Part shown: piece by piece, positions 1,472 to 52,996 of the stretch
Numbering within the stretch: the stretch's first letter is position 1
Layout of the letters: the number at the start of each line of letters is the position of its first letter
Origin: Pedosphaera sp.
Lineage (GTDB): Bacteria > Verrucomicrobiota > Verrucomicrobiia > Limisphaerales > UBA1096
NCBI GenBank assembly: GCA_022451065.1
Contig: JAKUOU010000025.1
Coordinates: 1 to 53,406 of the forward strand
Length of the DNA stretch: 53,406 nucleotides
Direction of reading: 5' to 3'
The notes under the pieces: model-generated
Database searches by the model: none
What the model saw: only the letters and a program-made list of their open reading frames with translations
What the model was told of the DNA's origin: nothing
Position numbers and translations under genes: made by a program

Positions 1472-2809
1472 ATGTCCGACACCTTCAACCCCTATGCCGA
1501 CAGTCTCAAGGCCGGCGCGCTCGGCTTGGCCAAGCGCTTGGTCAAGGCCGGGTTTGAGGCGTATTGGGTGGGCGGCTGCGTGCGGGACGCCCGACTTGGC
1601 CAAGCGCCGACCGACTACGACATCGCCACCGACGCCAAGCCGGACGAGATCGAGAGGTTGTTCCAAAGAACCATTCCGATTGGCAAACAGTTTGGCGTCA
1701 TGATGGTCCTTGAGGACGGTCACGAGTATCAGGTGGCTACCTTCCGTGCCGAGGGCGGTTACACCGATGGGCGGCGTCCGGGCAGCGTGCGCTTTACCGA
1801 CGCGCGAGAGGACGCCTTGCGGCGCGACTTTACCATCAACGGCCTGTTTTACGATCCACTCGCCGACGAACTGCACGACTGGGTCGGCGGCGAGGCCGAC
1901 CTCGAGTCCCGGCGCATACGCACCATCGGCGATCCGGCGGAGCGCTTTGGCGAGGACCGGCTGCGACTGCTCCGCACCGTGCGCTTGGCCGCGCAACTTG
2001 GGTTTGAGATCGAGCCGGGGACATTTGCCGCCGTACAGCAAAATGCAGCTGCTATAGGTGAAGTGAGTGCCGAGCGCATCCGTGACGAACTGCTGAAATT
2101 GTTCCGGCCACCGCACGCCGCATGTGGTCTCGACTTGTTGAACGAAAGCCGGTTGCTGCCAGAGGTGCTGCCTGAGCTGGCCGCTTTCGTCGGCTGCGAG
2201 CAGCCGACGAAATACCATCCCGAGGGTGATGTCTTCCGGCATATTCGGTTGATGCTTGGACATCTTCCCGCCGATGCCGGTACGACACTCATCTGGTCGG
2301 TGCTGATGCACGATATTGCAAAGCCGGCGACCTTTACCCGGGAAGCGGAGGGGCGCATCCGTTTTTTGGGTCATGAAAAAGTCGGAGCCGTCATGACACT
2401 GGAAATCATGAACCGCCTGTGCTTCCCAAAGGCCGAGAGCGCTACGGTGAGAACCTGTGTGCGACATCACATGCAGTTGAAGGCCGCGCAACAAATGCGG
2501 CCCGCCACGTTGCGAAAACTGTTCCTCCGACCGACCTTCCCGGTCGAGCTGGCGTTGCACCGGCTCGACAGTCTCGCCTCTACCGGCAAACTCGACAATT
2601 TTGAGTTTTTGGAGGCCAGGTTTGCCGAGTTCCAAGACCAGCCGGAGCTGCAAAAACCGCTGATCGACGGCGGCGACCTGATTGCGCTTGGCCAAGCGCC
2701 GGGATCGGAACTGGGCAAGCTGCTCAGCGACATCCGTAACCGCCAACTCGCTGGCGAACTCACCAGCCGCGAACAAGCCCTCGACTGGGCCCGCGATGTT
2801 CTGGGCTAG
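1472..2809 (+). CDS. cca: CCA-adding enzyme / poly(A) polymerase family tRNA nucleotidyltransferase with HD domain
   Basis: AYWVGGCVRDARLG, PTDYDIATDAKPDEI, RRDFTINGLFYDP and HD-type VLMHDIAKP; start chosen at MSDTFNPY. Confidence 0.9.
   Translation: MSDTFNPYADSLKAGALGLAKRLVKAGFEAYWVGGCVRDARLGQAPTDYDIATDAKPDEIERLFQRTIPIGKQFGVMMVLEDGHEYQVATFRAEGGYTDGRRPGSVRFTDAREDALRRDFTINGLFYDPLADELHDWVGGEADLESRRIRTIGDPAERFGEDRLRLLRTVRLAAQLGFEIEPGTFAAVQQNAAAIGEVSAERIRDELLKLFRPPHAACGLDLLNESRLLPEVLPELAAFVGCEQPTKYHPEGDVFRHIRLMLGHLPADAGTTLIWSVLMHDIAKPATFTREAEGRIRFLGHEKVGAVMTLEIMNRLCFPKAESATVRTCVRHHMQLKAAQQMRPATLRKLFLRPTFPVELALHRLDSLASTGKLDNFEFLEARFAEFQDQPELQKPLIDGGDLIALGQAPGSELGKLLSDIRNRQLAGELTSREQALDWARDVLG
1524..1546. 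repeat. Iterated palindrome plus adjacent degenerate copy (GCTTGGCCAAGC GCTTGGTCAAG)
   Basis: Direct reading; encodes LAKR-LVK in the tRNA nucleotidyltransferase gene. Confidence 0.85.
2684..2699. repeat. 16-bp perfect palindrome GCGCTTGGCCAAGCGC
   Basis: Direct reading; encodes part of IALGQAPG. Confidence 0.9.
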
Positions 2810-3198
2810 GCCGGCAGTGGTTTTTTCCAGATAGGAACCTTCTGCTTCATCTCTTCGATAAGGAATTGGCAGGCGGCGAACGCCTCCGCGCGGTGCGGTG
2901 CGATTACCTCCACCCACAACGATGGCTCGTTCACTGGCACCAAGCCGAGTCGATGAACCAGGCGCACCGAATCCACCGGCCATCGCTGTTCAATGGCTTC
3001 GAAAATCAGCCCGAACTGGTGGCGGGCCATTTCCTCGTGGGCCTCATAATCAATTGCGGTGATCGATGCATGTCCTTCTCTCCCGCGCACGACGCCCGAG
3101 AAGCAAACCACCGCTCCCATGCCATCTCCCATTTCGCGCCGCTTGACCAAAGCGGCCTCGTCAATTGGATCAATTGAAATGGTCAGTTGCGTCTTCAT
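2806..3198 (-). CDS. moaE: Molybdopterin synthase catalytic subunit MoaE
   Basis: GAVVCFSGVVRG, AIDYEAHEEMA, VHRLGLVPVNEPSLWVEVIAPHRAEAF, KQKVPIWKK. Confidence 0.92.
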   Translation of the reverse strand: MKTQLTISIDPIDEAALVKRREMGDGMGAVVCFSGVVRGREGHASITAIDYEAHEEMARHQFGLIFEAIEQRWPVDSVRLVHRLGLVPVNEPSLWVEVIAPHRAEAFAACQFLIEEMKQKVPIWKKPLPA

Positions 3199-3201
3199 CA
3201 G

Positions 3202-3462
3202 TCAACCACCCTGGACCGGCGGAAAAAAGGATACCTCATCGCCGTCACTAAGCATAAAATCATCATCCTGATAATTCACTCCGACAGCTTTGAGCGTGCT
3301 GTTTTTTGCCTCTGCAAGTTTCGGAAACTGTTCGCATACCCGTTCGTGCAGCTTGGCCAGTGTGGTTCCGTTTTCGGTTTCGATCTCCGTTTTTTTGCAG
3401 CCGGTATAGTCGGCGAAGTAAGACCAGAATTGAACGGTAATAATCATTTGCTCACTACTCAC
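3202..3462 (-). CDS. moaD: Molybdopterin converting factor small subunit MoaD
   Basis: Small ubiquitin-like protein ending in FFPPVQGG (C-terminal GG), adjacent to moaE. Confidence 0.88.
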   Translation of the reverse strand: MSSEQMIITVQFWSYFADYTGCKKTEIETENGTTLAKLHERVCEQFPKLAEAKNSTLKAVGVNYQDDDFMLSDGDEVSFFPPVQGG

Positions 3463-4010: not shown

Positions 4011-4026
4011 GGGGCGGGTGACGACC

Positions 4027-4443: not shown

Positions 4444-4661
4444 GGTTTTTTGGAGAAATCTCGATGAGACGGCGCTTTACTTGACCAAGCGAGGTAGTCT
4501 ACCAAACTAATTGGAAGTCGCTGGTTGCCTTGGCGAAAACTGCATCGAGACATGCACCCGGCGATTTGTCTTGAAGGAACGGCGCTTCAAACGGACGATG
4601 CCGGTTATCCGGTGATCCGTTTTTTTCACGGCAACAGTAACTTAGCTCGTCCTTCGTCTGT

Positions 4662-7238
4662 ATGATCATGGTTGTCGATTCAATGTATCGCACATTTCGA
4701 TTTTTAGCGCTTACAACGCTGTTTTGCCTTGCGCTTGGCCAAGCGCAGGCAGGTACATTGAAAGAGGCGCGCCAACTGTATGCCACCGGTGAGTACGCCA
4801 AGGCCATTAAGGCTAGTGAGGAGGCTATCGCTGCCGACGAGAACGACAGCGGCTGGCGGTTATTGCTGCTACGGGCGCGGTTGGTCACCGGCCAGTACCC
4901 TGAAGCCAAGCAGTTTGCCACCCAATTACTGGAGGATTACCGTTACCGATACAATGCCGAGGCGCTTTGGCTGTTTCATCTCGCCTACGAGGCCACCGGC
5001 GATACCCAGCAGTCAGGCCAAATGCTGCAGATCATTATGCAGTTCCTCAATGGACAACGGGCCATCAGCGACGAGAACACGCTTGTCTTCATCGGGCGCG
5101 CGCTGCTCAAGGCCGCCGTTTCCGATCCCAAGCAAGTCAAGGAGAACCTGTTCGACCGTGTGCTCAAGTCGAGTCCCAACAATCGGGAAGCGTTGTTGGC
5201 CACAGGCGAACTGGCCTTGGCCAAGCGCGACTTCAAGTTGGCCGGCAGGACGTTTACGAGGGCGATCGGGCATTATCCCGAGGATGCGGACTTGTTGTAT
5301 GGCCTGGCTAAGGCCTACGCCGAGAGCGACCCGTCGCAAATGGAGGAACCGCTGCATACGGCGATGTTCACCAATCCCGACCATATCCCGTCGCTGCTGT
5401 TGCAGGCGCACAATCAGGTCGATGCCGAGCAGTATGAAACGGCCAAAGGCATCCTGAAGGCCATCTTCAAAATCAACCCACACCACGCTGGGAGTTGGGC
5501 GCTGCAGGCCGCCATCCATACCGTTCGCAATGAGCCAGACAAAGCCAGGTCGGCTCGCGAGAGCGGCTTGAAATATTGGAAGACCAACCCGCTGGTGGAT
5601 CATGAGATCGGAAAAAAGCTTTCGTCGAAATACCTCTTCACCGAAGGCGCAGCGCATCAGCGGCAGGCGCTGGCTTTCAGCAAGGATTATATACCTGCCA
5701 AGACGCAACTCGCGCAGGATTTACTGCGGCTTGGCCAGGACGAGGAAGGGTGGAAGCTGGCCGGCGAGGCGCACGATGCCGATGGCTACGATGTGACCAC
5801 GTTCAACCTTCTCACTCTTCACGAATCGCTGAAAAAGTACGTGACGATCGACCGTAACGGCTTTCTGCTACGGATGACCAGTGACGAGGCGGCGCTGTAC
5901 GGCGACGAGGCGATCGATCTGCTCACCGAGGCCCGTGGGTTGTTCTCAAAAAAATACGATACTCAGATTGAGGGCTCGGTGATTGTCGAGATTTTCCCCG
6001 AGAAAAAGGATTTTGCCGTGCGGACATTCGGTATCCCGGGTGGCGACGGCTACATGGGTGTCTGCTTCGGCAGACTCATCACTGCCAATAGCCCCAAGTC
6101 GCTCGTTGGCTTCCAGCAGAACTGGCAGTCGTTACTCTGGCACGAGTACTGCCACGTCATCACTCTGCAAAAGACGCGTAACAAAATGCCGCGCTGGTTC
6201 AGCGAGGGCATCTCCGTTTACGAGGAGCGGCTGAGACATAGCTCGTGGGGCGAGCAAATGACGCCGGAGTACCGCAACTTCATTCTCGACGGCGAGATGA
6301 CACCGATCGAGCGGCTAAGTATGGCCTTTCTTGTGCCCAAGAGCCCTGAGCATATTCAGTTCGCCTATTACCAGTCATCGCTCGTGGTTGAGTATCTCGT
6401 GAAAAATTTTGGTGAGACCTGCATCAGCAACATTCTGCGCGACCTTGGTCAGGGCGTGTTCATCAACATCGCCATCGAGCAGCACGCCGCCCCCTTGGCC
6501 AAGCTTCAGGAAGGGTTCACCGCGTTTGCCACCGGCTTAGCCGAGGCATTCGCCCCTGAGGCGGACTTGGTCAAGCCGAATCCGCTCGAGGTCAATCCGC
6601 TCGACAAAAATGCTATCGTCGATTGGCTCGAGGCCAACCCAAACAACATCTGGGCGCTCAACACCACCTGCGCGAACCTTGTCGAGGAGGAGGAATACCT
6701 CGAGGCAATCCCGCTGCTCGAGAGATCGATCAAGCTCCACCCGAGACAGCGCGGCGTTGGCTCGCCCTACGGCATGCTCGCCCGGGCGCACCGCGAGCTT
6801 GGCCAGGCGGAGGACGAGCTCGCTGTCCTCGAGCAATGGGCCGCCATTGAGGACGCAGCGACAAAACTTTACGGGCGGTTGATGGAGATCCACTCAGAGC
6901 GAGAAAACTGGTCGGCCGTCGATCGTCTAGCCAAGCGTTTCTTTTCGGCCAATCCACTCTCGCCAATCGCCCATCGTTTCATGGCGCTCACTGCACAGCA
7001 AACCGGTAGGCAAGCCGACACCATTCGGCCGCTTAGGCGTCTGCTATTGCTCGATCCAGCCGACCCGGTGGATCTGCATTTCCGTCTGGCCACGGCACTG
7101 GCTGATACGGCGAAGGAGGAGGCCAGGCGCCACGTGCTGCAGGCGCTCGAGGACGCGCCACGGTTTCGCGCCGCGCAGAAACTACTCATTCGCCTTGCCA
7201 AGCCGGATCCGACTGCCGTTGAAGCCAAGGCACAATGA
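4662..7238 (+). CDS. Secreted TPR protein with gluzincin-type (peptidase MA-like) metalloprotease domain
   Basis: N-terminal signal peptide ...FCLALGQAQA; TPR-like repeats on both sides; zinc motif LLWHEYCHVITLQKTRNKMPRWFSEGISVYEE. The actual start may be the Met at MYRTFRF. Confidence 0.8.
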   Translation: MIMVVDSMYRTFRFLALTTLFCLALGQAQAGTLKEARQLYATGEYAKAIKASEEAIAADENDSGWRLLLLRARLVTGQYPEAKQFATQLLEDYRYRYNAEALWLFHLAYEATGDTQQSGQMLQIIMQFLNGQRAISDENTLVFIGRALLKAAVSDPKQVKENLFDRVLKSSPNNREALLATGELALAKRDFKLAGRTFTRAIGHYPEDADLLYGLAKAYAESDPSQMEEPLHTAMFTNPDHIPSLLLQAHNQVDAEQYETAKGILKAIFKINPHHAGSWALQAAIHTVRNEPDKARSARESGLKYWKTNPLVDHEIGKKLSSKYLFTEGAAHQRQALAFSKDYIPAKTQLAQDLLRLGQDEEGWKLAGEAHDADGYDVTTFNLLTLHESLKKYVTIDRNGFLLRMTSDEAALYGDEAIDLLTEARGLFSKKYDTQIEGSVIVEIFPEKKDFAVRTFGIPGGDGYMGVCFGRLITANSPKSLVGFQQNWQSLLWHEYCHVITLQKTRNKMPRWFSEGISVYEERLRHSSWGEQMTPEYRNFILDGEMTPIERLSMAFLVPKSPEHIQFAYYQSSLVVEYLVKNFGETCISNILRDLGQGVFINIAIEQHAAPLAKLQEGFTAFATGLAEAFAPEADLVKPNPLEVNPLDKNAIVDWLEANPNNIWALNTTCANLVEEEEYLEAIPLLERSIKLHPRQRGVGSPYGMLARAHRELGQAEDELAVLEQWAAIEDAATKLYGRLMEIHSERENWSAVDRLAKRFFSANPLSPIAHRFMALTAQQTGRQADTIRPLRRLLLLDPADPVDLHFRLATALADTAKEEARRHVLQALEDAPRFRAAQKLLIRLAKPDPTAVEAKAQ
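4731..4746. repeat. 16-bp perfect palindrome GCGCTTGGCCAAGCGC
   Basis: Direct reading; identical to 2684-2699; encodes LALGQAQ of a signal peptide. Confidence 0.9.
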
Positions 7239-10031: not shown

Positions 10032-12109
10032 GTTTTCTTACACCGCTTTACCTGTTGGGCGTGCTTGGCCTGTCCATCCCGATTATCCTGCACCTGCTGC
10101 ATGACCGGCCGAAAAACAAGCAGGAATTTGGCAGCCTGATGTTCCTTGACAAGACCAAGCCGCCGGTGGACCGCAAGCGGCGGCCGACGCACCTGCTGCT
10201 GCTGTTGCTGCGCTGCCTTGCATTGTTGTTGCTGGCGTTCGTTTTTGCGCGGCCGTTCGTCACGGTCGATGACCCGGCTGATGCGGCGCGGCGCGACCGC
10301 CAATGGATCACCGTGCTGCTCGACCGCAGTGCCAGCATGCAGCGCGGCGATTTGTGGGAGCAAGCCAAGGCTAAAGTGCAAACTACGCTTGGTCTACTCG
10401 GCCCGGGCGACCGTTTCTCGCTAATAGCTTTCGATGACTCCACCGAGCCGTTGGCTGAGGTCAAGTCGTGGCTTGGGAGCTCGTCCGAGGCGGAGGCTAA
10501 CATCCCACTCGAGCGCCTGGCCAAGCCGGGCTTCGGCGGGAGCAACCTTGGCCAGGCGCTCGTGTTTGCCGGCGAGTCGATACAGGAGGCCGATCCGGGA
10601 GCGGACGAACAGCCTTTGGCTAGGCGCGAGATTATTGTCATCAGTGATTTGCAAAAGGGCAGCCGTCTTGGCGAGGTGCAGGGCTACGAATGGCCCACTG
10701 GCATCAAGGTGACACTCGAGCAAATCGGCGAGGACGATCAGGGCAATGCCGGCATCGAGCAGGTCGCCTCCCGCGCGCCATGGGCCGCAGCCGCAGCCGT
10801 GCCGTCATTCCGCATCAGCAACTCAGCCAATAGCATCGGTGATGAGCTTGAGTTTTTGGCACACACAACTGCCGGCGAGACTCTCAGCCAGAAGGTGCAC
10901 GTTCCGCCGGGCCGCAGCCGAGTGGTCGAGTTGCCGCGCGAATGGACAGGGCAAATCCTTGAGCGACTGGCCATTCGGGGCGACGCGGCGGAGTTCGACA
11001 ATCAGTTTCATTTTGCGCAAAACCGGCAGCAGACAGTGCGCATCGTTTACATTGGCGAGGACAAATCGAACGACGCCGAGGGCTCGCTGTTTTATCTTGC
11101 GAGTGCGTTTCAGCAGTTGAGTACTATTGATTTTCAGGTTGAGGCGGTCAGCGGCAAATCGCCCGGCCCGCTGCCTGAGGCCGATCTGTACGTCATCGGC
11201 GATGCCGTTGACGACCCGCTGGCCCAAACACTTGGCCAGGAGGTTGAGGGTGGTGCCACCGCGCTGATGGTTGTGCAGTCGACGGACCAGGCCGCGAATC
11301 TCGGACAGTGGCTTGGTGCGGACGGTGTTGTCATCCGCGATATCGCGTCGAGTGACTACGCGCTGCTTGAGTCGCTAAAGCTGGATGATCCGGTTTTGTC
11401 GGTGTTTCGGGACGCGCGATTCAGCGACTTCACGAACCTGCACTTCTGGAAACATCGCGAGCTGCAAAACTTGCCCGACGAGGGCATCGACGTGCTCGCC
11501 CGGTTTGACTCCGGCGCACCGGCCTGGCTGGCGGCGCGGCGCGGCATCGGCCGTCTGCTGGTGATGACCTCTGGCTGGACACCGGCCGACAGCCAACTGG
11601 CGCTTTCAACCAAGTTCATCCCGCTGCTCTACTCGGTCCTTCAACCGGTGCTTGAGCGCAAAACCCAGTCGCGGCAGTTTGTCGTCGGCAACCAAGTTGA
11701 CTTGACGCGATTGAACAACGGCCAGGCCGACGGCAGCGTCACTGTCATGCCACCCGGCGGCGGGGCGCCGGCGATTTCGGTCGACACGTTTTTTACGCCG
11801 GCCGCTCCCGGCCTGTACACAGCGAAGGGCAGTGGCTGGTCGGAGACGTTCGCGGTGAACCTCACGGCGGCGGAGAGCCGCACCGAGCCGATCGTTATGG
11901 ATCAATTTAAAAAACTAGGCCTGCCGATGACCGATCCGGTTGCCTTTTCCGGTGAGATTGCAGCCGCCGCTGACGCAGCGGAAAAGACCGAGGCGCACCG
12001 CCGGGAATACTGGCAATGGGCCTTGGCGGCGGTACTTTTGTTTGTCACTCTGGAGACCGTTCTGGCCGCCAGAGGCAGTCAGCCAGCAGAACCAGTCATG
12101 ATAACATGA
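10028..12109 (+). CDS. BatA N-terminal / VWA-domain membrane protein
   Basis: N-terminal MSFLTPLYLLGVLGLSIPIILHLLHDRPKN is BatA-like; ITVLLDRSASMQRGD is a MIDAS-like VWA motif; C-terminal TM. Confidence 0.85.
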   Translation: MSFLTPLYLLGVLGLSIPIILHLLHDRPKNKQEFGSLMFLDKTKPPVDRKRRPTHLLLLLLRCLALLLLAFVFARPFVTVDDPADAARRDRQWITVLLDRSASMQRGDLWEQAKAKVQTTLGLLGPGDRFSLIAFDDSTEPLAEVKSWLGSSSEAEANIPLERLAKPGFGGSNLGQALVFAGESIQEADPGADEQPLARREIIVISDLQKGSRLGEVQGYEWPTGIKVTLEQIGEDDQGNAGIEQVASRAPWAAAAAVPSFRISNSANSIGDELEFLAHTTAGETLSQKVHVPPGRSRVVELPREWTGQILERLAIRGDAAEFDNQFHFAQNRQQTVRIVYIGEDKSNDAEGSLFYLASAFQQLSTIDFQVEAVSGKSPGPLPEADLYVIGDAVDDPLAQTLGQEVEGGATALMVVQSTDQAANLGQWLGADGVVIRDIASSDYALLESLKLDDPVLSVFRDARFSDFTNLHFWKHRELQNLPDEGIDVLARFDSGAPAWLAARRGIGRLLVMTSGWTPADSQLALSTKFIPLLYSVLQPVLERKTQSRQFVVGNQVDLTRLNNGQADGSVTVMPPGGGAPAISVDTFFTPAAPGLYTAKGSGWSETFAVNLTAAESRTEPIVMDQFKKLGLPMTDPVAFSGEIAAAADAAEKTEAHRREYWQWALAAVLLFVTLETVLAARGSQPAEPVMIT

Positions 12110-18262: not shown

Positions 18263-19242
18263 GGTTATTGTTGCTGAGCCTGCTGCTGTTGCCCTTTGCC
18301 AAGTCGGCCGCGGAGATCGCGATTTTTAACGAGGTAAATGAGCGCCGCGTGATGATCATCACTGGGGCCGGTGGCGAGGAGGAATACACCGAGTTGTTCG
18401 CCGAGTGGGGGGAGAGCTTGGCCAAGGCGTTCGACGGTAACGCTGCCGAGATGGTGCATATCACCAACAAGCCGGAAGACATCGGCGCGCGAAAGACTAT
18501 CGAGTCGACACTTAAAAAATGGGTCGAAAAGTCGGACAGTGAAATTTGGATTCTGCTCGTCGGCCACGGCACGTTCGACGGCAAGGCTGCCAAGTTCAAC
18601 CTCGTTGGCAACGATGCCTCGGACGCGGATTTTAAGCATTGGCTCAAGCTGCATCGCGGGCCGCTTGTGTTCATCAATACCAGTTCCTGCAGCGCACCGT
18701 TCATCCGGTCACTCTCGGGCCTGAACCGCGTTATCGCCACCGCGACCAAGAGCGGCTATGAGCAAAACTTTTGCCGCTTCGGCGGCTATATGGCGGCTGC
18801 GCTTGGCCAGGCGGGGGCAGACCTCGACAAGGACGGCGCGGTGTCGGTGCTCGAGGCGTTCCTGATCGCCTCGCGCCAGGCTGGTGAATTCTACCGCGAA
18901 AATGATCGGTTGGTTTCCGAGAACGCACTGCTCGACGACAACGGCGATGGCATGGGCACTCCGGCCGACTGGTTTCGTGGCGTGCGCACGCAGAAGAAGG
19001 CCAAGGGCAAAAGCAGTGCCGACGGCAAGTTGTCGCGTCTGGTTTTTCCGGTGATTCCCCCGGCGGAAAAAGACATCCCAGCCCCGCTCCGCAAAAAGCG
19101 GCTCGCTGCCGAGGCTAAAATCGAAACCCTGCGTTCGCTTAAAAAAACACTCGAGGCCGAAATTTACTACCGCGACCTCGAAAAACTGTTCCTCGAGTTG
19201 GCTGCCACCAACGACGAGATTGAAACTGCCCAGCAGGAGTAA
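18259..19242 (+). CDS. Secreted caspase-like (clan CD, C13/legumain-like) putative peptidase
   Basis: Signal peptide MRLLLLSLLLLPFAKSAA; hydrophobic-HG block IWILLVGHGTFDG and hydrophobic-C block LVFINTSSCSAPF in caspase-fold order; ATGA overlap with the upstream gene. Confidence 0.65.
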   Translation: MRLLLLSLLLLPFAKSAAEIAIFNEVNERRVMIITGAGGEEEYTELFAEWGESLAKAFDGNAAEMVHITNKPEDIGARKTIESTLKKWVEKSDSEIWILLVGHGTFDGKAAKFNLVGNDASDADFKHWLKLHRGPLVFINTSSCSAPFIRSLSGLNRVIATATKSGYEQNFCRFGGYMAAALGQAGADLDKDGAVSVLEAFLIASRQAGEFYRENDRLVSENALLDDNGDGMGTPADWFRGVRTQKKAKGKSSADGKLSRLVFPVIPPAEKDIPAPLRKKRLAAEAKIETLRSLKKTLEAEIYYRDLEKLFLELAATNDEIETAQQE

Positions 19243-40900: not shown

Positions 40901-43342
40901 GCCGTCAAACTGGTTGTAGCGCGGCAGCCGAACCTTCCACGAGTTGCGGCCGGAGTTACGGCGGAAGAAGCTGCCGTTCCAGCGACAGTAAACATCTCGC
41001 ACTTCACCATTGTACACCAGGATGCCGTGTACGGTGTCGTTCCAGGGGCCGCGCGGTTTGATGTTTTTGGCTGGTCGGTAGCCGCTGCGTGGATTGGCCG
41101 CCGCGTTCTTGGAAAGTTGGCTGATGCTTTTTCTTGAAACCATTAGTTCGAAATATTTTCTGGTGTCAGTAAACCTGGGCATCACGAAATAGAGATGCCA
41201 CTGGTAAGGATCGCTTTTACGTGGGGAGATCTTTTCTTGGCCCATGCCGAGGTCGGCCGAGATTCGGTAGCGCACCAGCGTCCGGTCCGGCTTCTTGGGC
41301 AGAGTATGCGTCCAGATGCCGTTCTCCAGTTTCATGTCGCGCTTGGCTACGGTTTCGCCCTCCTTCTCAAGGTGGTCGTAAAAGTATTCGAGTGTTACGT
41401 TGTTTAGCGTTTCGTTGTTGGAAAACCTGGCCTCGATTGTAACAGTGTCCAGTTTGCCGATCAGGGTGTTTCCTTTTTTGTTGACCGCGCGGATGGAGGT
41501 GACGATGGGCGCCGGCATCGCTCGCTCGCGCGCGATGTGGTTCGGTCGGCCCGGCGTGGCATTTTTCTCGAGCGGCGAGGCGACCCAGTTGGCAGGGTCG
41601 CCGCCTGGCAGCGAGAAGTTGATTCGCTCCAGTGACCTGCCGCGGTACTGGTACTGCATCGGGTCGATGCCGGTCCATTTTGGCCCTGCACCGATCGAGT
41701 CTGCGCCCATGGGCCAGGGAAACAGGGCAGAGTAACGGACGCTGTCCTCGGCGTTGCCACCGTCGTTTTCCACGCTGACCTGCTCGCCGTTATTGCTTAG
41801 AACGCCCTCGTATGGGCCCAGCACTGTCACGCCAGCTAGACGATACTCCTTGATGGAGGCTAGGCGCTTGGGATTCTTCGCCACGATCAAAAAGTCACCG
41901 CTCTCGACTTTCGTCCCCGCTGGGAAGGCGTAGTCGATGCCGCCGCTGATCCGCCAGTTGTCCAGCGCCACCGTTTCCCGGCTGAAGTTGTGCAACTCGA
42001 TGAACTCGTGAACATCCTCCGACAAGTCGAGCAGCGGTTGGCCGCTCCGGTTAAATTCAGGTTCCTCGACCGGGTGGTACATGATCTCGGAGATCACGAT
42101 ACGCGGCGGTGGAGGCGCATTGGCATTCACGTGGTAAAACCAGCCAAGTGGCAGGAATGTTTTCTTGAACGGATTTGTGCCTGTGATGTTGTGGTGTACG
42201 TCCCATGAGATTTTCACCTCGGCGCCCGGTGCTTGGCCAAGCACAAACCGATAGTGACTGTCACTGATCTTCGTCAGGCTTTTCGCTGGCGTGCCGTTAA
42301 TCAGAAGGTCATCTGCGTCCACCCCTCTGACCGGCATGCTGAACTCCACCTCGACCATGTCGAGTGACTTTACCGTCAACCCGGCCGGCGGGTTGGTTCG
42401 CCTCACGTACGGCGGATTGTTATCGGCATGCGTGTACGTCCAGCGATTGCCATTGGCGGTTTCTAGGAAGGTGTTGGGAGTCTGGGCCTGGTCGGTGATG
42501 CCGTGATTCTTCGCCCAGGTGAGGTTCACCTTGCCCTGGGGCAGGCCGGCGAGTTGAAACACCCACGTCCGGCCGTTGCCCTCGACCGACTGCGCCGACT
42601 GGCCGTTCGCCATTAGGTCGGTGGCATCAACGCCGTTCACCGGCTCGCTGAAGGTAACACTAATTTGACCCAGATTTGATGCCAGGCCGCTTGGCGGGTC
42701 AACCGCCTCCACTTTAGGCGGGACACTTTCGACTGAGATCGCCGTTAGGCGGGCATCGAACAACACGTCCGTGCTGGTGCGCCGCAGGTTGAGCACGATC
42801 ACCGCGATTGTGTTTTCGCCATCGACCAAAATCTCATCCAGGTTTTTCAGCGCGTAATTGCGAAAGCGCAACGGCTCGGACGCCGCCTTGGAGGCGGCCG
42901 AGTTGTACTTTGGCTTTTCTATATCGACATTGTGCCGCGCCACTTCGGTCCCGTTGATGTAGGCCACAAACCCGTCGTCCACCTTAGCACGCAGCGTCAT
43001 CGAGGTGATCGTGTCCGGGTCGGGGGCATCGAACGTGCGCCGGAGAAAAAACGAGGAGTAGCGGCTCTTCATGTCGTCCAGCACGGTCCCGCCTGTGACA
43101 TTCTCGCCGAAGAAAACCGGTGTTGGGGCGGACTCCCATTCCGAGTCGTCATGGTTGGGCTTGAGCCAGGCCCAGTAGTCCGGGCGGGTGGGAGTCTTAT
43201 TGCCGCGCCACATTTTCCACGTTGATTTGTAATCAATGAGCGTTACCGCCTGACCCAGTGGGGTAGCGAGCAACAGTGCCAGCGGTAATGCCCACAGGCG
43301 CACAAAGCATGGCCCAGAGCTCTGCTGTCGGATTGCATGCAT
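37946..43342 (-). CDS. Giant secreted CotH-kinase-family protein with lamin-tail and SbsA-type Ig-like domains
   Basis: Start chosen at MHAIRQQSSG; lamin-tail-like IVISEIMYHPVEE...FIELHNFS, VILNELMAANRG...DWIELYNPT, LVINEWMARPENGDDWLELFNKS; CotH-like CRWNGSFFRRNSGRNSWKVRLPRYNQF and RLMIEDHNDRML; SbsA-type VEAVDPPSGLASNLGQISVTFSEPVNGVDATDL. Confidence 0.85.
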   Translation of the reverse strand: MHAIRQQSSGPCFVRLWALPLALLLATPLGQAVTLIDYKSTWKMWRGNKTPTRPDYWAWLKPNHDDSEWESAPTPVFFGENVTGGTVLDDMKSRYSSFFLRRTFDAPDPDTITSMTLRAKVDDGFVAYINGTEVARHNVDIEKPKYNSAASKAASEPLRFRNYALKNLDEILVDGENTIAVIVLNLRRTSTDVLFDARLTAISVESVPPKVEAVDPPSGLASNLGQISVTFSEPVNGVDATDLMANGQSAQSVEGNGRTWVFQLAGLPQGKVNLTWAKNHGITDQAQTPNTFLETANGNRWTYTHADNNPPYVRRTNPPAGLTVKSLDMVEVEFSMPVRGVDADDLLINGTPAKSLTKISDSHYRFVLGQAPGAEVKISWDVHHNITGTNPFKKTFLPLGWFYHVNANAPPPPRIVISEIMYHPVEEPEFNRSGQPLLDLSEDVHEFIELHNFSRETVALDNWRISGGIDYAFPAGTKVESGDFLIVAKNPKRLASIKEYRLAGVTVLGPYEGVLSNNGEQVSVENDGGNAEDSVRYSALFPWPMGADSIGAGPKWTGIDPMQYQYRGRSLERINFSLPGGDPANWVASPLEKNATPGRPNHIARERAMPAPIVTSIRAVNKKGNTLIGKLDTVTIEARFSNNETLNNVTLEYFYDHLEKEGETVAKRDMKLENGIWTHTLPKKPDRTLVRYRISADLGMGQEKISPRKSDPYQWHLYFVMPRFTDTRKYFELMVSRKSISQLSKNAAANPRSGYRPAKNIKPRGPWNDTVHGILVYNGEVRDVYCRWNGSFFRRNSGRNSWKVRLPRYNQFDGQSDLLFMDKDNVTVAGHTLYRELGLPTSHTEWVDVAINKRKMRRLMIEDHNDRMLEKYHEDQARRNPGTEIEPNGHIFKSSGILQNLGPYGRGDGGKLGSSAGWSSLQRYEWIYSSKNQDWKGHTELQEMIDGLAKNRSNRTRLKKWFEENWDMESLMSYIAVRNWMGTWDDTVHNFYFWRRADGRWAMLPWDFDNDMQSGFTTKSIFIGEAGNSNTTHGTHTVKDAFFKAFRTEYKEHLYYLNNTLLTPENLKRIGLSGYTSYATGRQPKVNQQCGKMSIPIQPSARKLTGGSSVYAPASMVVSAFESGDGAVTHASTLWEIRSADGSFTYPVFKTETTENLTELPVPFDLLKFGRSYYWRATYIDSKGRKSLPNTEAGFRYGGHSRSEDLIALKDTEWKYNADGKNLGTTWRKAEYDDSAWPSGKSYLGRATSRQKYKMATTLKMGATTFYFRKVFDFDQPAGGGELQIRYLIDDGAVFYLNGKQIHRANMKERGSIRYTTRALSAVSDAELSGQITLPGKSLKQGENILAVEVHQYSTNDRDLAFGLSLHATVESLPDGVILNELMAANRGSVTHADTNPDWIELYNPTNRAINLGGAGLGDGVALEPTFFFPVQTILPPKGHLIVWCDDQQEAPGLHTGFALDADGQNIALWWPSDEIDSSFPGLKIQDAIGFGPQAGDLSIGRNPDGLGLWSPTNPTPGQANVGADTGNISSLVINEWMARPENGDDWLELFNKSSLPVALAGLKLSDDPAQTDKTIMPPLSFIGPGGFLRLTADNSPSEGPTHLGYRLSGSGEEIVLTDTKDKVIDSVLFGEQTRGTSEGRYPDGAKSIVFFPNSATPGRANLILDDSDEDGLPNLWENQYGLNPNDANDAAIDTDNDGHTNLEEYLAGTRPDAANSVLAVDLTLHERNKRWMVVSFEAQSGRTYVLWNSADIAGDEWIKVQAFPAEDGKRTVTYRIPDEPLPLPSGYYRITIPATND
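42229..42244. repeat. 16-bp perfect palindrome GTGCTTGGCCAAGCAC
   Basis: Direct reading; same core, compensating changes in both arms. Confidence 0.9.
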
Positions 43343-43463: not shown

Positions 43464-46376
43464 ATGCGACTTGTAGCAACCATGGCGGCCTCGCTGTTGT
43501 CGGGCGTGCTTGGCCAAGCGGCACAGCCGGAACAGGGCGGGCGCTGGCCGTTTACGCCGGTTGGTCGTGTTGTTCCTCCGGAGGTCACGCGGACCAATTG
43601 GGTCAGCAATCCGGTGGATGCCTTTATTCTCTCTAAACTCGAGGCCAATGGGATTGCACCTGCGCGCTTGGCCAAGCGTCGTACGCTGGTTCGCCGGTTA
43701 TATTTTGATCTGCTTGGCTTGCCTCCGGAGTCGGACGTCGCCGACGCATTTATCGACGATCCCAGCCCGCTCGCCTATGAGCGCCTAGTCGATCGGCTGC
43801 TCAACGATCCGCGTTACGGCGAACGCTGGGCGCGCTACTGGCTCGACCTCGCACGTTACGCCGACACTGCCGGCTACGAGGGCGACCCTGACATGCCGCA
43901 TGCATGGCGCTACCGCGACTATGTCATCGACTCGCTCAACCGCGACAAGCCGTACGACCGGTTCATCCTTGAACAGATCGCGGGTGACGAGTTCAACGAG
44001 ATCATGGGCGCGGGAGAGCTGCCCGGCATGGATGCGGAGCGCACCGTCGCGCTGACGTTTTTGCGGCTCGCGCCGTTCACCGAGCCGCGCGGCGATCGGT
44101 CACGCCATGAACTGCTCAGCGAGATGACCTCGACGGTCAGCTCGGTTTTTCTCGGGCTCACCATGGGCTGCGCGCAGTGCCACGACCACAAGTATGACGC
44201 CATTCCGATTGACGACTTCTACCGCATGCAGGCGTTCTTCTCGACGGTGCAACTTCCACCTCCTGAGCGCGGCGACGGCTTCCAGATCGGCGGTCCGATG
44301 CCGGCCGGTTTTTATCGGTCGAACGAGTCGTCACTCATCGAGTCCACACGCAAAACATTGGAGAGCGAAGTTGGCGAAGCGAAGCAGCAGTTGGCTGACC
44401 TGACGAGGAAACTCGAGTCGCGCATCGGCAAACTCAACGCTGGTTTCGGTCTGCAGGCGTACGGTGGCGGTCTGGACAACGACTATGTTTTCGACACGGC
44501 AAATGTCAGTGACAGCAAACTACACTTCACGGTGGCGACGGCGAACGACCGAGAGTGGTCGTTCTTCACCGATGGCGTGCCGGCCAGGGAGTTGAACAAG
44601 AAAAGTGGCGGCAACAAAGGCAAATGGTACGCCGACATCCCGAAGCCGGAGTACATCAGTATCGGTGACTACACCGCGGGCACCGGCCAGCCCAGGGACG
44701 CGGGCCACAAGGGCGCATTTGCTGAGGTGCTGATTTACGATCGTCCCCTGGATGGGGGCGAAATCGCTGCACTCTCCGCCTACGTCAAGACCAAGTACAG
44801 TGGCCAGGGGAGCACGCCCGCGCCGCCGACCGATGGGCTGCGCTTCTGGCTCGACGCTGCAGACCTCGACGCCAACGCAGAGACCCCGAATCCTGGCGAT
44901 GGCTCCCGCGTCGGTGTCTGGGTTGATAAAGTGACGAAGACCGCGCTTGGCCAGGCGGAAGTCAGTCGGCAGCCCAGGCTCATGCGCCTTGGCCAAGCGC
45001 CGGCGCTGATGTTTGAAAAGAGTTTCCTCAAGGCCGGCATCGCGCGGGGTGGATCGGCGAAATTCCTCGAAGACCAGGCCGGTTCGATCGTCGTGGTTTT
45101 CTCTGCCGAGCACACCGGCGAAGGATACGGTTTCGAGGTTGGTGGCGGTGGCGCGATGCTCGCAACATTCATCAACCCCGCCGCGTCGAGCAGTCACAAA
45201 CTGCGCGACACCATTTACGACCACACCAACGATCTGTTCACCAAGAACGAACGTGATCTGTTTTACCGGCTGGAAAACCGCGAGCGCTTCGTGAAGCAGC
45301 ACCTCAAGCGGCTCAAGCCAGTCGCCATGTCGTTACGCCACTCGTTTGGGCCGCCGTATGAACCGGGTGTGCCGGTCACCACTGTCAAGTTGCGCGGCGA
45401 ATACGACAACCATGGCCCAGTGGTTAAGGCTGGTTTCCCGAGCATCGTCACCGGCCACAATAAACCGGCGGCCATCCGGCTCGACCCGTTCAAGCGCTGG
45501 CCGACTCGCAGCCGGCGAATGGCGCTGGCTAAGTGGATCGCCAGCCGGGACAACCCGCTCACCGCGCGTGTGATGATGAATCGCCTGTGGTACCGCCACT
45601 TCGGCCGCGGCATCGTCAGGACGCCGAGCGATTTTGGCAAACTCAGCGGTGGCGCGACGCATCCCCGGCTGCTTGACTGGCTGGCAGGGCGCTTTGTCGA
45701 CAGCGGCTGGAGCCTCAAGGCGATGCATCGGCTGCTCGTCACCTCCAGCACCTATCGCCAGTCGTCGTTGGTGGAAAATGCAGCGGCCGAGATGGTCGAT
45801 CCGTTGAACGATATGTGGTGGCGCTATGAACAACGGCGGCTCGACGCCGAGGCGATCCGCGACAGCGTGCTGGCGGTGAGCGGCCGGTTGAACCCGGAGC
45901 TATATGGCCTGCCGATCTTTCCTCCGTTACCGGGCGACATCGCCGAGACGGTGAAATATTCAGAGAACAAGTGGGACACGCAGCTAGACCAGGCTGGCCG
46001 TAAGCGCAGCATCTACATCTACCAGCAGCGCACTCTGAATATGCCGTTCATGCAGGCATTCGACTCGACCGTGTGCGACGAGTCGCGGCCGCGCCGCCGC
46101 ACCTCCGTCACGCCGCTTCAGGCGTTGTCGCTGTTCAACGGCGACTTCGTGAACGAGGAAGCTGCCGCTCTGGCCAAGCGCATTCGACGCGAGGCTGGCG
46201 ACAGTGTGCCGGAGCAGATCCGCCTGGCCTATCGATATACGCTGAGCCGTTCGCCCAGTGCGGAGGAAGCCAGCCGCTTTGGGAAAATTTTCGCCCAGGC
46301 AGACAATCCGGCCGATGCCATCAACGGCTTCTGCCGAGTCCTTTTCAACACCAACGAGTTCGTTTACATCGATTAA
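43464..46376 (+). CDS. DUF1549/DUF1553 planctomycete-type secreted protein with LamG-like insert
   Basis: NPVDAFILSKLEANGIAPA...LRRLYFDLLGLPP-type motif, DPRYGERWARYWLDLARYADT, ALAKWIASRDNPLTARVMMNRLWYRHFGRGIVRTPSDFGKLSGGATHPRLLDWLA. Confidence 0.92.
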   Translation: MRLVATMAASLLSGVLGQAAQPEQGGRWPFTPVGRVVPPEVTRTNWVSNPVDAFILSKLEANGIAPARLAKRRTLVRRLYFDLLGLPPESDVADAFIDDPSPLAYERLVDRLLNDPRYGERWARYWLDLARYADTAGYEGDPDMPHAWRYRDYVIDSLNRDKPYDRFILEQIAGDEFNEIMGAGELPGMDAERTVALTFLRLAPFTEPRGDRSRHELLSEMTSTVSSVFLGLTMGCAQCHDHKYDAIPIDDFYRMQAFFSTVQLPPPERGDGFQIGGPMPAGFYRSNESSLIESTRKTLESEVGEAKQQLADLTRKLESRIGKLNAGFGLQAYGGGLDNDYVFDTANVSDSKLHFTVATANDREWSFFTDGVPARELNKKSGGNKGKWYADIPKPEYISIGDYTAGTGQPRDAGHKGAFAEVLIYDRPLDGGEIAALSAYVKTKYSGQGSTPAPPTDGLRFWLDAADLDANAETPNPGDGSRVGVWVDKVTKTALGQAEVSRQPRLMRLGQAPALMFEKSFLKAGIARGGSAKFLEDQAGSIVVVFSAEHTGEGYGFEVGGGGAMLATFINPAASSSHKLRDTIYDHTNDLFTKNERDLFYRLENRERFVKQHLKRLKPVAMSLRHSFGPPYEPGVPVTTVKLRGEYDNHGPVVKAGFPSIVTGHNKPAAIRLDPFKRWPTRSRRMALAKWIASRDNPLTARVMMNRLWYRHFGRGIVRTPSDFGKLSGGATHPRLLDWLAGRFVDSGWSLKAMHRLLVTSSTYRQSSLVENAAAEMVDPLNDMWWRYEQRRLDAEAIRDSVLAVSGRLNPELYGLPIFPPLPGDIAETVKYSENKWDTQLDQAGRKRSIYIYQQRTLNMPFMQAFDSTVCDESRPRRRTSVTPLQALSLFNGDFVNEEAAALAKRIRREAGDSVPEQIRLAYRYTLSRSPSAEEASRFGKIFAQADNPADAINGFCRVLFNTNEFVYID
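43665..43678. repeat. 14-bp perfect palindrome CGCTTGGCCAAGCG
   Basis: Direct reading; encodes LAKR in the DUF1549 gene. Confidence 0.9.
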
Positions 46377-46517: not shown

Positions 46518-46531
46518 GAAGAAAGAATATC

Positions 46532-46947: not shown

Positions 46948-48390
46948 ATGAATTTGAGCTCTTGGCAAAATCGCAGGGAGTTCCTGTCCCGTGCTTGGAA
47001 TGGCATCGGCGCCATGGCGCTAGGAGGCGTCGTGATCGACGACCTCCATGCCGGCATAGGTGAGGCTAATCCATTTGCCGCTCAGCGGACGCATTTCTTG
47101 CGCAAGGCCAAGAACTGCATCTTCCTGTTCATGCAGGGTGGGGTGAGTCAGATGGACTCGTTCGAGTACAAGCCGCGGCTGCGAGAACTGCACGGCAAAC
47201 CGCTCTCCCATATCCCCGAGATTTCTGGTGAACTGCAGGGTCGCCTCTCGTTTCCGCACGTTACCATCGGCAGCCCATTTGAGTTCGCGCAGCACGGCCA
47301 GAGTGGCCGCTGGATGTCGGACCGCTTCCCGCACCTAGCCGGGCAAGCTGACGACCTGGCGTTCATCCACGGCATCAAGACCGACAACCAGAACCACGGG
47401 CCATCGACGCTGCACGTTAACACCGGCAGCCAGTTCCCCGGCAGCCCGTCGGTCGGCTCGTGGTTGAGCTACGGCCTGGGCAGCGGCAACCGCAACATGC
47501 CCGGCTACGTGGTGATACAGGATCCGCGCGGCGCACCAGTCAACGGCGCGGCGATCTGGAGCAACGGCTATCTGCCGGCGACGTACCAGGGCACACTACT
47601 GCGGCCAAGCGGCACGCCGATTTTAAACCTTGATTCGCCAAAGGGCATTGGGCGCATCCGGCAGCGCCGCGAGATGGATGCTCTGCAGTGGCTCAATCGC
47701 CGCCACCTGGCCAAGCGCGGCGGCGACAGCGAACTCGAGGCGCGCATCAGCGCGTACGAACTGGCGTTTCGCATGCAGACAGAGGCGCCGGATTTGATGA
47801 ACATCAGCGGTGAGCCGCAGCACATTCGTGATCTTTACGGGCTGGACAACGGCACCACGGCTGGCTTTGGCCGCCAATGCCTGCTGGCGCGGCGCATGGT
47901 CGAGAGCGGCGTGCGCCACACGCTGCTCGTGCACGGCGTGCAGATTACGAACATGAGCTGGGATGACCATGGCGACGTGAAGGGTGGCATGATCCGCCAC
48001 TGCTCCGAGGTGGATCGCCCCGTCGCCGGCTTGCTGGCCGACCTCAAGCAGCGTGGGCTGCTCGACGAGACGCTGGTCGTGTGGGCCTCCGAGATGGGCC
48101 GCACACCTTTCAGGAACGGCGGCATGTCAGGGAACCCCGGCCGCGAGCACAACTCGTGGGCGCTGACCATGTGGATGGCCGGTGGCGATGTGAAAGGCGG
48201 CACCACCGTCGGCGCAACCGACGAGTTTAGCCTGCGCGGCATCGGCGACACCATTCATGTTCGAGACGTGCACGCGACGATCCTCGACCTCATGGGTCTC
48301 GACCAGGAGGCGGTCAACTATCAGCACGCCGGCCGCATCCGCAAGTTGACCGACATTGGCGGCCGGGTCCTCAAGGATATCGTCGGCTGA
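46948..48390 (+). CDS. DUF1501 family protein (sulfatase-fold, planctomycete/verrucomicrobial type)
   Basis: RREFLSRAWNGIGAMALGG leader; KNCIFLFMQGGVSQMDSFEYKP; VWASEMGRTPFRNGGMSGNPGREHNSWALTMWMAGGDVKGG. Confidence 0.93.
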   Translation: MNLSSWQNRREFLSRAWNGIGAMALGGVVIDDLHAGIGEANPFAAQRTHFLRKAKNCIFLFMQGGVSQMDSFEYKPRLRELHGKPLSHIPEISGELQGRLSFPHVTIGSPFEFAQHGQSGRWMSDRFPHLAGQADDLAFIHGIKTDNQNHGPSTLHVNTGSQFPGSPSVGSWLSYGLGSGNRNMPGYVVIQDPRGAPVNGAAIWSNGYLPATYQGTLLRPSGTPILNLDSPKGIGRIRQRREMDALQWLNRRHLAKRGGDSELEARISAYELAFRMQTEAPDLMNISGEPQHIRDLYGLDNGTTAGFGRQCLLARRMVESGVRHTLLVHGVQITNMSWDDHGDVKGGMIRHCSEVDRPVAGLLADLKQRGLLDETLVVWASEMGRTPFRNGGMSGNPGREHNSWALTMWMAGGDVKGGTTVGATDEFSLRGIGDTIHVRDVHATILDLMGLDQEAVNYQHAGRIRKLTDIGGRVLKDIVG

Positions 48391-50453: not shown

Positions 50454-51389
50454 ATGAGACTTAAATTAAATCAATTGGGCGCCTGGCTAGGCGCGGTGTC
50501 GACCTCTCTATGTGCCGTGCCGCTTGGTCAAGCTCAGGTACAGGTAACCGACAGTGTTGTTGTTGTGGTGGATGCCTCCGGCTCGATGGGCGCGGATATG
50601 GCCGGCACAGGTCGTGACCGTATGTCCGTAGCCAAGGACGCGCTTAAGCAGGTGCTTGACCAGATCCCGGACACGACCCATGTCGGTATCCTGGTGTTCC
50701 CACAGGGCGACTGGGTTTACCCGCTTGGCCCACGCAAGGAGAGCATGTTGGCTGGGGCGATCGACAGCATCCAGTCCGGGGGCGGGACGCCGCTGGGGAA
50801 TTATATGAAACGGGGTGCGGATGTGTTACTGGACGCGCGTAGGAAACAGTTTGGCTACGGCACCTACCGCCTGCTCGTCGTGACCGACGGCGAAGCCGGC
50901 GATGCGCGACTGGTCGAGGCCTACACGCCGGACATCATATCGCGCGGAATCACAATTGATTGTATCGGGGTGGAGATGGCATCGCGCCACACTCTGGCCA
51001 CGAAGGTGCATTCCTACCGCAATGCCAACGATCCTGAGTCGCTCAAGCAGGCGATCTCGGAGGTGTTCGCCGAGGTGGCCTCGGTGGATGCCGGGCAGAC
51101 GGGGGAGGATGCGTTTGAGCTGATCGCCGACCTGCCGGAAGCCACCGCCTCGGCCATGCTCAAGTCGCTTTCCACCTCGGGGAACCAGCCGATCGGCGAG
51201 TCGCCGAGCATGCGCTCTGTCGAGTCGCCATCGCCCAGTCCAGCGCCATCCTATTCGGGTGGGACGACAAGTTCACAGTCAACTTCAGGAGCGGAGGACG
51301 ACCCGCTTGTGCTTCTATGTGCTGCTCTTTGCGTGTTGGGTGTTCCTGGCCTAGTGATTTTCGCCATTGTCAAAGGTAAGAAGAAGTAA
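50454..51389 (+). CDS. Exported VWA-domain protein with C-terminal TM
   Basis: VQVTDSVVVVVDASGSMGADMAGTGRDRMSVAKDALKQVLDQIPDTTHVGILVFPQ (DxSxS MIDAS), VVTDGEAGD; C-terminal hydrophobic anchor followed by KGKKK. Confidence 0.9.
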   Translation: MRLKLNQLGAWLGAVSTSLCAVPLGQAQVQVTDSVVVVVDASGSMGADMAGTGRDRMSVAKDALKQVLDQIPDTTHVGILVFPQGDWVYPLGPRKESMLAGAIDSIQSGGGTPLGNYMKRGADVLLDARRKQFGYGTYRLLVVTDGEAGDARLVEAYTPDIISRGITIDCIGVEMASRHTLATKVHSYRNANDPESLKQAISEVFAEVASVDAGQTGEDAFELIADLPEATASAMLKSLSTSGNQPIGESPSMRSVESPSPSPAPSYSGGTTSSQSTSGAEDDPLVLLCAALCVLGVPGLVIFAIVKGKKK

Positions 51390-52954
51390 TGTCAGAGGGT
51401 AACGGTTCCAAGGGATGCATCATTGCCGTGGTGTGGCTGGTCATACTGGCCGTTCTCGCCGGGGCCGTCTGGTTTTTCTACACGAAGCCAAAGAGCGAGC
51501 AACTCAACCAGGCCACCGGTTCCTCCAGCCAATACACCCACGAGGTCACCATCGCCGCCGATTTGTTCAGCGGCTACGCCGTGCTGCGTTCCGCGCAGAT
51601 GCGAGACAACCTGAAGTTGGAGGGCATTCGGTTGACGATGGTGGACGACGGTGCCGACTACGGTGCCCGGCTCGAGGCACTGGAGGAGGGCGACGTGCAA
51701 ATGGCGGTGTACACGATTGATTCACTGTTGATGGCCGGGGCCAAAGCCGGCGGTTTTCCGGCGTCGATCGTGATGGTGATCGACGAAACCAAGGGGGCGG
51801 ATGCAGTGCTGGCCTATAAGAGTGCCGTTGCCTCGCTTCAGGATTTGGACGATCCCCAAGCCCGCTTCGTGCTGACACCCAGTTCGCCGAGCGAGTTTTT
51901 GGCCCGCGTCGTGAAGTCTCACTTCAAGCTACCCAACCTGTCCGGCAACTGGATGATCGAGGCCGACGGTGCTGCCGATGTGCTCAAAAAAATGAGAGCC
52001 GCCAAGCAGTCTGACAAGACGGCGTATGTCATGTGGGAGCCGCAGGTTTCCCAGGCCAAGAAGTTGCCCGGCGTCGATGTGATTCTGGACAGTTCCAGGA
52101 TCAAGGGTCTGATTGTCGATGTGCTCGTGGCGCGCCGCGAGTATCTGCGCGATCATCCGGACAAGGTTCGCGCCGTGGTTGAGGCCTATTCCCGTGCCGC
52201 GCACCATTACAGGAGCCAGCCAGACGGCTTTATCAAGCTGGTCAAGTCGGACGACCCGAATCTGTCCGACACCGAGGCTAAGAGTCTGGTGGCCGGCATT
52301 CAGTGGAAAAACACCCTCGAAAACTACGCACACTTTGGTTTGGTACGTGGCGTGGCAGCGGGCGGCCAGCCCAACCTCGAGGACATAATTGCCAATGTCA
52401 CCGATGTCCTCATCAAGACCGATGCGATTGGGAGCGACCCGCTCGGTGGCCGGCATTCGTCGCTCTACTTCGATCAGATTCTGACTGACTTGAAGGCCGA
52501 CAATTTCCATCCAGGCAACCGGATGAATCTCATCGAGGGGCTTGGCCAGGGGACGGGCGATCTACAGGGTGTGCGCACCAATGCCAACCTCGGGGCAATT
52601 AGCGATGACCAGTGGAAAACGCTCCAATCGGTCGGCGACCTCGACGTGCCGTCGATCGGTTTCCGGCGTGGTTCTGCCACCATCTCGCTCTCCGGCGAGC
52701 ATGAGTTGAAACGGCTCAAAAAGATGCTGGATAGTTTCCCGAGCTTTTACCTCCGCGTCGTTGGCCAGGCGCGTGCCGTGGGAGATCCCGAGGCCAACCG
52801 TCGATTGGCCCGTTCGCGCGCCGAGTCTGTCGTCAATTTCCTCAATACCGAGGGGGTCAATGCGGATCGAATCCGTACCGAGGCCGCCCCGGCTGCCTCC
52901 CGTTCCGGATCGGCCCAGAGCGTTCGTTTCGAACTGGGCCAGGTGCCGTATTAA
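51389..52954 (+). CDS. Membrane-anchored substrate-binding protein with C-terminal OmpA-like domain
   Basis: N-terminal TM IIAVVWLVILAVLAGAVWFFY; SBP region HEVTIAADLFSGYAVLRSAQMRDNLKLEGIRLTMVDDG; C-terminal LRVVGQARAVGDPEANRRLARSRAESVVNFLNTEGV. Confidence 0.8.
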   Translation: MSEGNGSKGCIIAVVWLVILAVLAGAVWFFYTKPKSEQLNQATGSSSQYTHEVTIAADLFSGYAVLRSAQMRDNLKLEGIRLTMVDDGADYGARLEALEEGDVQMAVYTIDSLLMAGAKAGGFPASIVMVIDETKGADAVLAYKSAVASLQDLDDPQARFVLTPSSPSEFLARVVKSHFKLPNLSGNWMIEADGAADVLKKMRAAKQSDKTAYVMWEPQVSQAKKLPGVDVILDSSRIKGLIVDVLVARREYLRDHPDKVRAVVEAYSRAAHHYRSQPDGFIKLVKSDDPNLSDTEAKSLVAGIQWKNTLENYAHFGLVRGVAAGGQPNLEDIIANVTDVLIKTDAIGSDPLGGRHSSLYFDQILTDLKADNFHPGNRMNLIEGLGQGTGDLQGVRTNANLGAISDDQWKTLQSVGDLDVPSIGFRRGSATISLSGEHELKRLKKMLDSFPSFYLRVVGQARAVGDPEANRRLARSRAESVVNFLNTEGVNADRIRTEAAPAASRSGSAQSVRFELGQVPY

Positions 52955-52970
52955 GGGAGCGCTGCAAAAC

Positions 52971-52996
52971 CTGGCCAAGCCTCTTGGCCAAGCGCA
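52971..52996. repeat. Two closely spaced iterated-palindrome copies in an intergenic region (CTGGCCAAGC CTCTTGGCCAAGCGC)
   Basis: Direct reading; lies between the stop at 52954 and the GTG at 53061. Confidence 0.85.

Follow-up and report, generated by a model that had tools for sequence, protein, structure and literature searches.

Why should a single stretch of a verrucomicrobial genome repeat one 10-letter DNA palindrome, CTTGGCCAAG, 19 times? The stretch, hereafter the window, comprises 53,406 nucleotides of contig JAKUOU010000025.1 from Pedosphaera sp. (assembly GCA_022451065.1), with a guanine-plus-cytosine (GC) content of 58.2%. An original prediction made from these letters had described CTTGGCCAAG as a relative in kind of the cyanobacterial highly iterated palindrome HIP1 with a sequence of its own, and its 19 exact coordinates are all correct. 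Shuffling the window 100 times with dinucleotides preserved gave 0.05 copies on average and never more than 1, and the expectation under a third-order Markov model is 0.34, which rules out chance or base composition as the source. Eighteen of the 19 exact copies lie within called genes and only the copy at 52983 is intergenic; searching the window with Rfam and for tRNAs provided no lead on the palindrome. The earlier interpretation as a whole is partly supported, its account of the pattern faring better than the enzyme it proposed to look for.

The over-representation extends across the genome: the window's assembly (3.48 Mb, 86% complete) contains 982 copies, or 282/Mb, against 11 of the reversed word used as a control. 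We surveyed 320 genomes of the order, comprising 21 species of the window's genus, which is the only genus of its family in this set, and 299 others. CTTGGCCAAG occurs 41 to 3274 times per genome in the 21 species and at most 59 times in the others. Most of the 21 carry 280 to 830 copies/Mb (peak, 828/Mb, up to one per 1.2 kb), with four exceptions, three low-GC species and one other, at 15 to 133/Mb. The observed-to-expected ratio under a Markov model of order 3 is 49 to 93 in the species designated G000 and G008. GC content was rejected as sole cause, because density does not correlate with GC in the 14 species that exceed 55% GC (rho, 0.02). Two outgroup families, sampled at 200 kb each, contained no copy. 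When GTDB representatives were scanned with the 16-mer GCGCTTGGCCAAGCGC, 64 of 80 loci among the matches listed were in metagenome-assembled genomes (MAGs) of Verrucomicrobiota, and the remaining 16 were single hits in scattered taxa whose genomes contain 1 to 11 copies of CTTGGCCAAG. Fifteen of the listed MAGs have CTTGGCCAAG totals identical to those of genus members (for example, NIOZ-UU28 with 3274, SB9160_S9_bin_9 with 2731, ARS81 with 2619, UBA6775 with 2311, and MED711 with 1552) and were therefore taken to be the same genomes; a marine sample origin is evident in several of their names. The lineage restriction that the original prediction had proposed to look for in relatives is thus pronounced, and the enrichment does not go beyond a single genus of Verrucomicrobiota, the members of which are uncultured and mostly marine. 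Viral carriers were rejected, since the viral contigs listed had one match each, as by chance. A literature search, the coverage of which omits most subscription journals, returned no prior description of this element.

CTTGGCCAAG is kept at the DNA level, and strongly enough to reshape proteins. Copies inside genes, the counts of which rest on a purpose-made gene caller, far exceed those in synonymous-codon shuffles (74 versus 4.9 in G000, 113 versus 3.9 in G008, and 27 versus 2.0 in G020), so that the enrichment survives the codon-preserving control suggested at the outset. All three reading phases are used, and density is higher between genes than within them, at 2.69/kb versus 0.68/kb in G008 (4-fold) and 0.71/kb versus 0.27/kb in G000 (2.6-fold), with similar values and no clear preference among gaps of co-directional, convergent, or divergent type. 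Copies inside genes encode LGQA or xLAK in the majority of cases. The peptides LGQA, RLAK, and AWPS exceed their compositional expectation in G008 by 26-, 22-, and 20-fold, respectively, whereas rearranged or reversed control peptides reach 0 to 1.7. Of the 99 LGQ tripeptides in that genome, 69 are written as CTTGGCCAA (2.25 expected), and the minor codon CTT specifies 86% of LGQ leucines, compared with 11% in the background. In aligned orthologs with the same residue, compared over species pairs that are not independent, CTT remains CTT in 90% of cases inside sites and 44% outside, TTG in 67% and 46%, and CAA in 67% and 56%. The strictly held CTT corresponds to position 3 of the palindrome, and the looser CAA and TTG correspond to position 2/9, which tolerates T>C. 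Here a signal held in the DNA plainly dictates amino acid motifs proteome-wide, and this affects how conservation is to be read in these MAGs.

The strict core of the site is TGGCCA; position 2/9 is tolerant (T>C), and in the flanks G is favored at -1 and C at -2. Transitions account for most one-off forms in G000, of which CCTGGCCAAG is the commonest (46 versus 2.6 expected). Both arms are needed: where the half-site GCTTGG in G008 is followed by a second arm matching at 5/5 positions the excess is 182-fold, falling to 10-fold at 4/5 and to 0.7- to 0.9-fold at 0 to 1. The flanking arm positions show no covariation, position 1 in G008 being complementary in 58% of cases, with 55% expected under independence. 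The preferred extension to 14 to 16 bp is accordingly a sequence preference and not a hairpin, and the need for both arms together with the lack of covariation beyond the core points to symmetric protein-DNA recognition. The form singled out earlier as the best, GCGCTTGGCCAAGCGC, occurs twice in the window, at 2684 and 4731, and the so-called compensated variant GTGCTTGGCCAAGCAC is indeed present at 42229; given arms that do not covary, it does not amount to evidence of pairing. Copies can also abut in a 12-bp register, as in CCAAGCGCTTGG (18 versus 0.13 expected in G008).

Copies are gained and lost through point substitution in place. Synteny over the window's first 20 kb holds in 17 relatives, and in the resulting 18-species matrix, wherever at least one species has an exact copy (34 places), the remaining species show the exact word, a one-off form, or an eroded one. 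Orthologous near-cognates have the same length (indels inside sites, 3.4%; background, 2.0%), which excludes mobile insertion and also paralogy, in agreement with the original prediction. In dense species, sites are shared far more often than control 10-mers: 81% versus 23% from G018 to G008, 8/9 (89%) versus 20% from G014 to G008, and 75% versus 27 to 28% between G008 and G006. Fitch parsimony gave 49 gains and 28 losses; branches leading to G001+G005, G020, and G013 lost sites most often. The low-GC species G001, G005, and G019 (40 to 43% GC) hold 15 to 23 copies/Mb, and YTTRGCYAAR words are still in 3.5- to 3.7-fold excess in them; G001 also retains an excess of LGQA (4-fold) and RLAK (5-fold). 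We infer that these remnants are fossils of a once-dense state. In the fetched stretches of G001 (40% GC), TTTAGCTAAA (12 versus 1.6) and TTTAGCCAAA (20 versus 3.7) are over-represented and are perhaps AT-shifted descendants of the palindrome. Loss of MutS was rejected as the reason for the erosion, because MutS1, found in 20 of the 21 species, is present in G001, G005, and G019. With densities from 15 to 828 copies/Mb and independent erosions, the 21-species series allows the responsible gene to be searched for by presence and absence.

What, then, maintains the palindrome? The explanation that best accounts for the whole is a HIP-class recognition site in double-stranded DNA, for which we consider the chances to be evenly balanced; that the site serves a dimeric reader other than a methyltransferase is slightly more probable than its converse. 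A dimeric, sequence-specific, non-methylating DNA-binding protein would read CTTGGCCAAG throughout the genome, and DNA with better sites would be preferentially retained. More tentatively, this reader might belong to the machinery of recombination, repair, or DNA uptake, with the palindrome marking self DNA, and sites might decay, mostly through transitions, where that machinery is lost. Such a self-marker role is possible but doubtful on present evidence.

The distribution of ComEC, the DNA-uptake channel, hints at a self-marker for uptake or recombination. ComEC was found in 9 of the 21 species, not one of which is among the 6 with the lowest density; its absence from 12 species compares with 4.6 expected from incompleteness (P = 0.0003), and density is higher where it is present (Mann-Whitney p = 0.02, one-sided, with no phylogenetic correction). 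In G008, comEC (L404:2-3509) is located between ffh (signal recognition particle M domain) and a vanZ-like gene. DNA uptake sequences (DUS) and uptake signal sequences (USS) have a density of about 1/kb, similar to that of CTTGGCCAAG. Those of Neisseriaceae and Pasteurellaceae, respectively, resemble it further in their non-coding excess and in the gradual accumulation of near-matches (Bakkali 2007, PMC1939737); they differ in being non-palindromic, whereas the enrichment here needs both palindrome arms, and ComEC is patchy in this genus. In its boldest form, which we regard as speculative, CTTGGCCAAG would be the first palindrome to serve self-recognition or uptake, a HIP that operates without a methyltransferase and is read by a dimeric transformation or recombination protein, with loss of that reader together with ComEC eroding the sites. 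If true, this would unite HIP1 and DUS/USS as one phenomenon.

Several observations weigh against a recognition site of this kind. The analysis turned up no protein that reads CTTGGCCAAG, and G020 lacks the intergenic excess, although few of its intergenic bases were examined. The link with ComEC ignores kinship, and MAG completeness, 83% in species with ComEC and 75% in those lacking it, confounds it; moreover, there are dense genomes in which no ComEC was detected, namely, G006 (88% complete), G011, G009, G017, and G004. Known uptake sequences are asymmetric, whereas CTTGGCCAAG is dyad symmetric. The methyltransferase search described below covered four families; other methyltransferase classes and non-methyl modifications such as phosphorothioation were outside it.

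The most serious competitor, although an unlikely one, is a site for nucleoid architecture or segregation, in which a dimeric nucleoid-associated protein would occupy thousands of copies and selection would hold them at about 1/kb. Dyad symmetry, genome-wide spread, a plateau near 0.8/kb, and the intergenic preference are all consistent with such a role. The spacing in G008 is uneven, however, with 46 pairs 30 to 200 bp apart against 30 expected and 55 pairs 200 to 1000 bp apart against 85, and no candidate protein was seen.

Somewhat less probable is a neutral drive in which biased mismatch repair or gene conversion turns near-cognates into CTTGGCCAAG without the cell gaining anything from it. 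The origin by substitution, the abundance of one-off forms, the higher intergenic density, the 20- to 26-fold distortion of peptides, and the near-universal MutS1 would fit this process. A sequence-specific reader would still be required, however, and site density is not set by the presence of MutS1, which the eroded species G001, G005, and G019 have as well. In G020 (L394) and G013 (L396 and L397), two lower-density, lower-GC species, mutS1 is split across two separate open frames, which represents either real breakage or assembly frameshifts.

To our knowledge, HIP1 itself has been without explanation since 1995, the leading model invoking DNA methylation. In most cyanobacteria it reaches 300 to 2700 copies/Mb, and it has been tied to an orphan methyltransferase, with methyl-directed mismatch repair proposed as the mechanism (Elhai 2015, PMC4390886). 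Transferred to the present genus, such a model would have an orphan methyltransferase act on GGCC or TGGCCA while mismatch repair builds the sites, and the likeness in density (280 to 830/Mb here, except in four species) speaks for it. The original prediction had likewise suggested an orphan enzyme for GGCC, TGGCCA, or TTGGCCAA, and here it failed: no tested DNA methyltransferase family is conserved in the genus. PF00145 (the m5C family) was found in 1 of the 21 species, PF01555 and PF02086 in none, and PF02384 only as three weak fragments of about 20 bits in 3 species, while the same searches were positive in control genomes. Assembly gaps cannot explain these absences, given the recovery of MutS1 in 20 of 21 species. 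The excess of close neighbors in G008 also runs counter to the saturation model (one site per kb), which predicts no such excess. We therefore consider the HIP1-type model very improbable, the four families being absent from essentially all 21 species. The genus's only C5-cytosine methyltransferase (L016:358-1899), which has an N-terminal HTH_17 domain, is in G008, the species with the most palindromes, and is probably a recent acquisition.

CTTGGCCAAG is nevertheless HIP-like by behavior. It shares with HIP1 (GCGATCGC) and the alternate cyanobacterial HIPs (Elhai 2015, PMC4390886) a short palindrome that is tens- to hundred-fold over-represented, present at hundreds of copies/Mb in and between genes, most variable at its outer positions, and scarce in some relatives; dispersal and origin by substitution likewise agree with the class. 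New are the phylum, one genus of Verrucomicrobiota instead of cyanobacteria, the sequence, with a longer core (10 bp, with a preference for 14 to 16 bp), and the lack of a conserved DNA methyltransferase among the four families tested, which leaves CTTGGCCAAG without the matching orphan enzyme of a HIP and without the cognate enzyme of a restriction-modification site. An independent HIP of this kind in another phylum suggests that methylation is dispensable. The REP and BIME extragenic palindromes are also numerous and dispersed; they are longer, imperfect, and mostly extragenic, whereas the copies here are mainly intragenic (18/19 in the window) and originate through point substitution.

Transcription terminators or RNA hairpins, to which the foldable 14- to 16-mer and some copies directly after stop codons might point, are scarcely credible, since most copies are intragenic, convergent gaps show no clear excess, and the arms do not covary. 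An artifact of codon usage or of conserved LGQA/LAKR protein motifs, one of two outcomes named beforehand as fatal to the original prediction (the other, a genome-wide observed-to-expected ratio near 1 after shuffling, did not materialize either), has a negligible chance of being correct: a majority of in-gene copies do encode LGQA or xLAK, but the synonymous shuffles, the three phases, the intergenic excess, the preference for the minor codon CTT, and the 90% conservation of a synonymous base refute it.

Within the window, sites were placed by sequence match and, in its first part, by syntenic comparison. The open reading frame (ORF) at 1427-2809 (+) has an exact palindrome in phase 2 (1525..1534) that is exact too in G014, G008, G020, G003, and G015, followed 12 bp later, in the tandem register, by the near-cognate CTTGGTCAAG (1537..1546), which is exact in G003 and G015. 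The exact copy at 1595..1604 is in phase 0 and encodes LGQA within CVRDARLGQAPTDYDIATD, which we take to resemble the conserved catalytic nucleotidyltransferase motif of CCA-adding/poly(A) polymerases; the palindrome may therefore alter residues there. Next come exact copies at 2687..2696 (16-bp form GCGCTTGGCCAAGCGC, 2684-2699; exact in seven other species), 4734..4743 (phase 0; 16-bp form, 4731-4746), 5216..5225 and 6494..6503 (both phase 2), and 18417..18426 (exact in G008, G020, G018, G014, and G011). Among the near-cognates of this part, CTTGGCCAGG is at 5730..5739 (exact in G001) and 11231..11240 (exact in G008) and, also given as CTTGGCCAGGCG, at 6798..6807 (exact in G003 and G015), 10547..10556 (exact in 10 relatives), and 18802..18811 (exact in G009, G015, and G011); CTTGGTCAAG is at 6566..6575 (exact in G008, G006, G013, G018, and G014), CCTGGCCAAG at 10516..10525 (exact in 9 relatives) and 19779..19788, CTTGACCAAG at 4480..4489, and the core TTGGCCAAGCGC at 13925..13936 (full palindrome in G008 and G006).

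Farther along, exact palindromes matched by sequence are found in a sulfatase gene (25798..25807 and 26167..26176, both phase 2), the ORF at 27712-31698 (-) (31231..31240), a Usp-domain gene (33238..33247), a CitMHS-family transporter gene (34750..34759, phase 0), a multihaem cytochrome gene (37843..37852, -), and a PSD1/PSCyt2 gene (43509..43518, phase 0), as well as at 42232..42241 (flanks GTG...CAC, 42229-42244), 43667..43676 (14-bp form, 43665-43678), and 44988..44997 (phase 0). Near-cognates there are CTTGACCAAG (30418..30427), the cores TTGGCCAAGCGC (33031..33042) and TTGGCCAAGCG (37529..37539), CTTGGTCAAG (36052..36061, 36113..36122, and 50523..50532), CTTGGCCAGG (37559..37568, 39627..39636, 52541..52550, and, also given as CTTGGCCAGGCG, 44946..44955), and CCTGGCCAAG (47706..47715 and 52970..52979), the last adjoining the intergenic exact copy at 52983..52992. 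Most near-cognate positions had been read correctly from the outset (TTGGCCAAGCGC at 13925 and 33031, TTGGCCAAGCG at 37529, and CTTGGTCAAG at 1537, 36052, 36113, and 50523), and CTTGGCCAGGCG, put at about 10550, 18801, and 44945, is at 10547, 18802, and 44946; the copy assigned to 6559 is really at 6566, and CTTGACCAAG at 4480 and 30418 and CTTGGCCAGGCG at 6798 had been missed. One further exact copy (40493..40502) lies in the ORF at 37946-43351 (-), which is about 1800 residues long.

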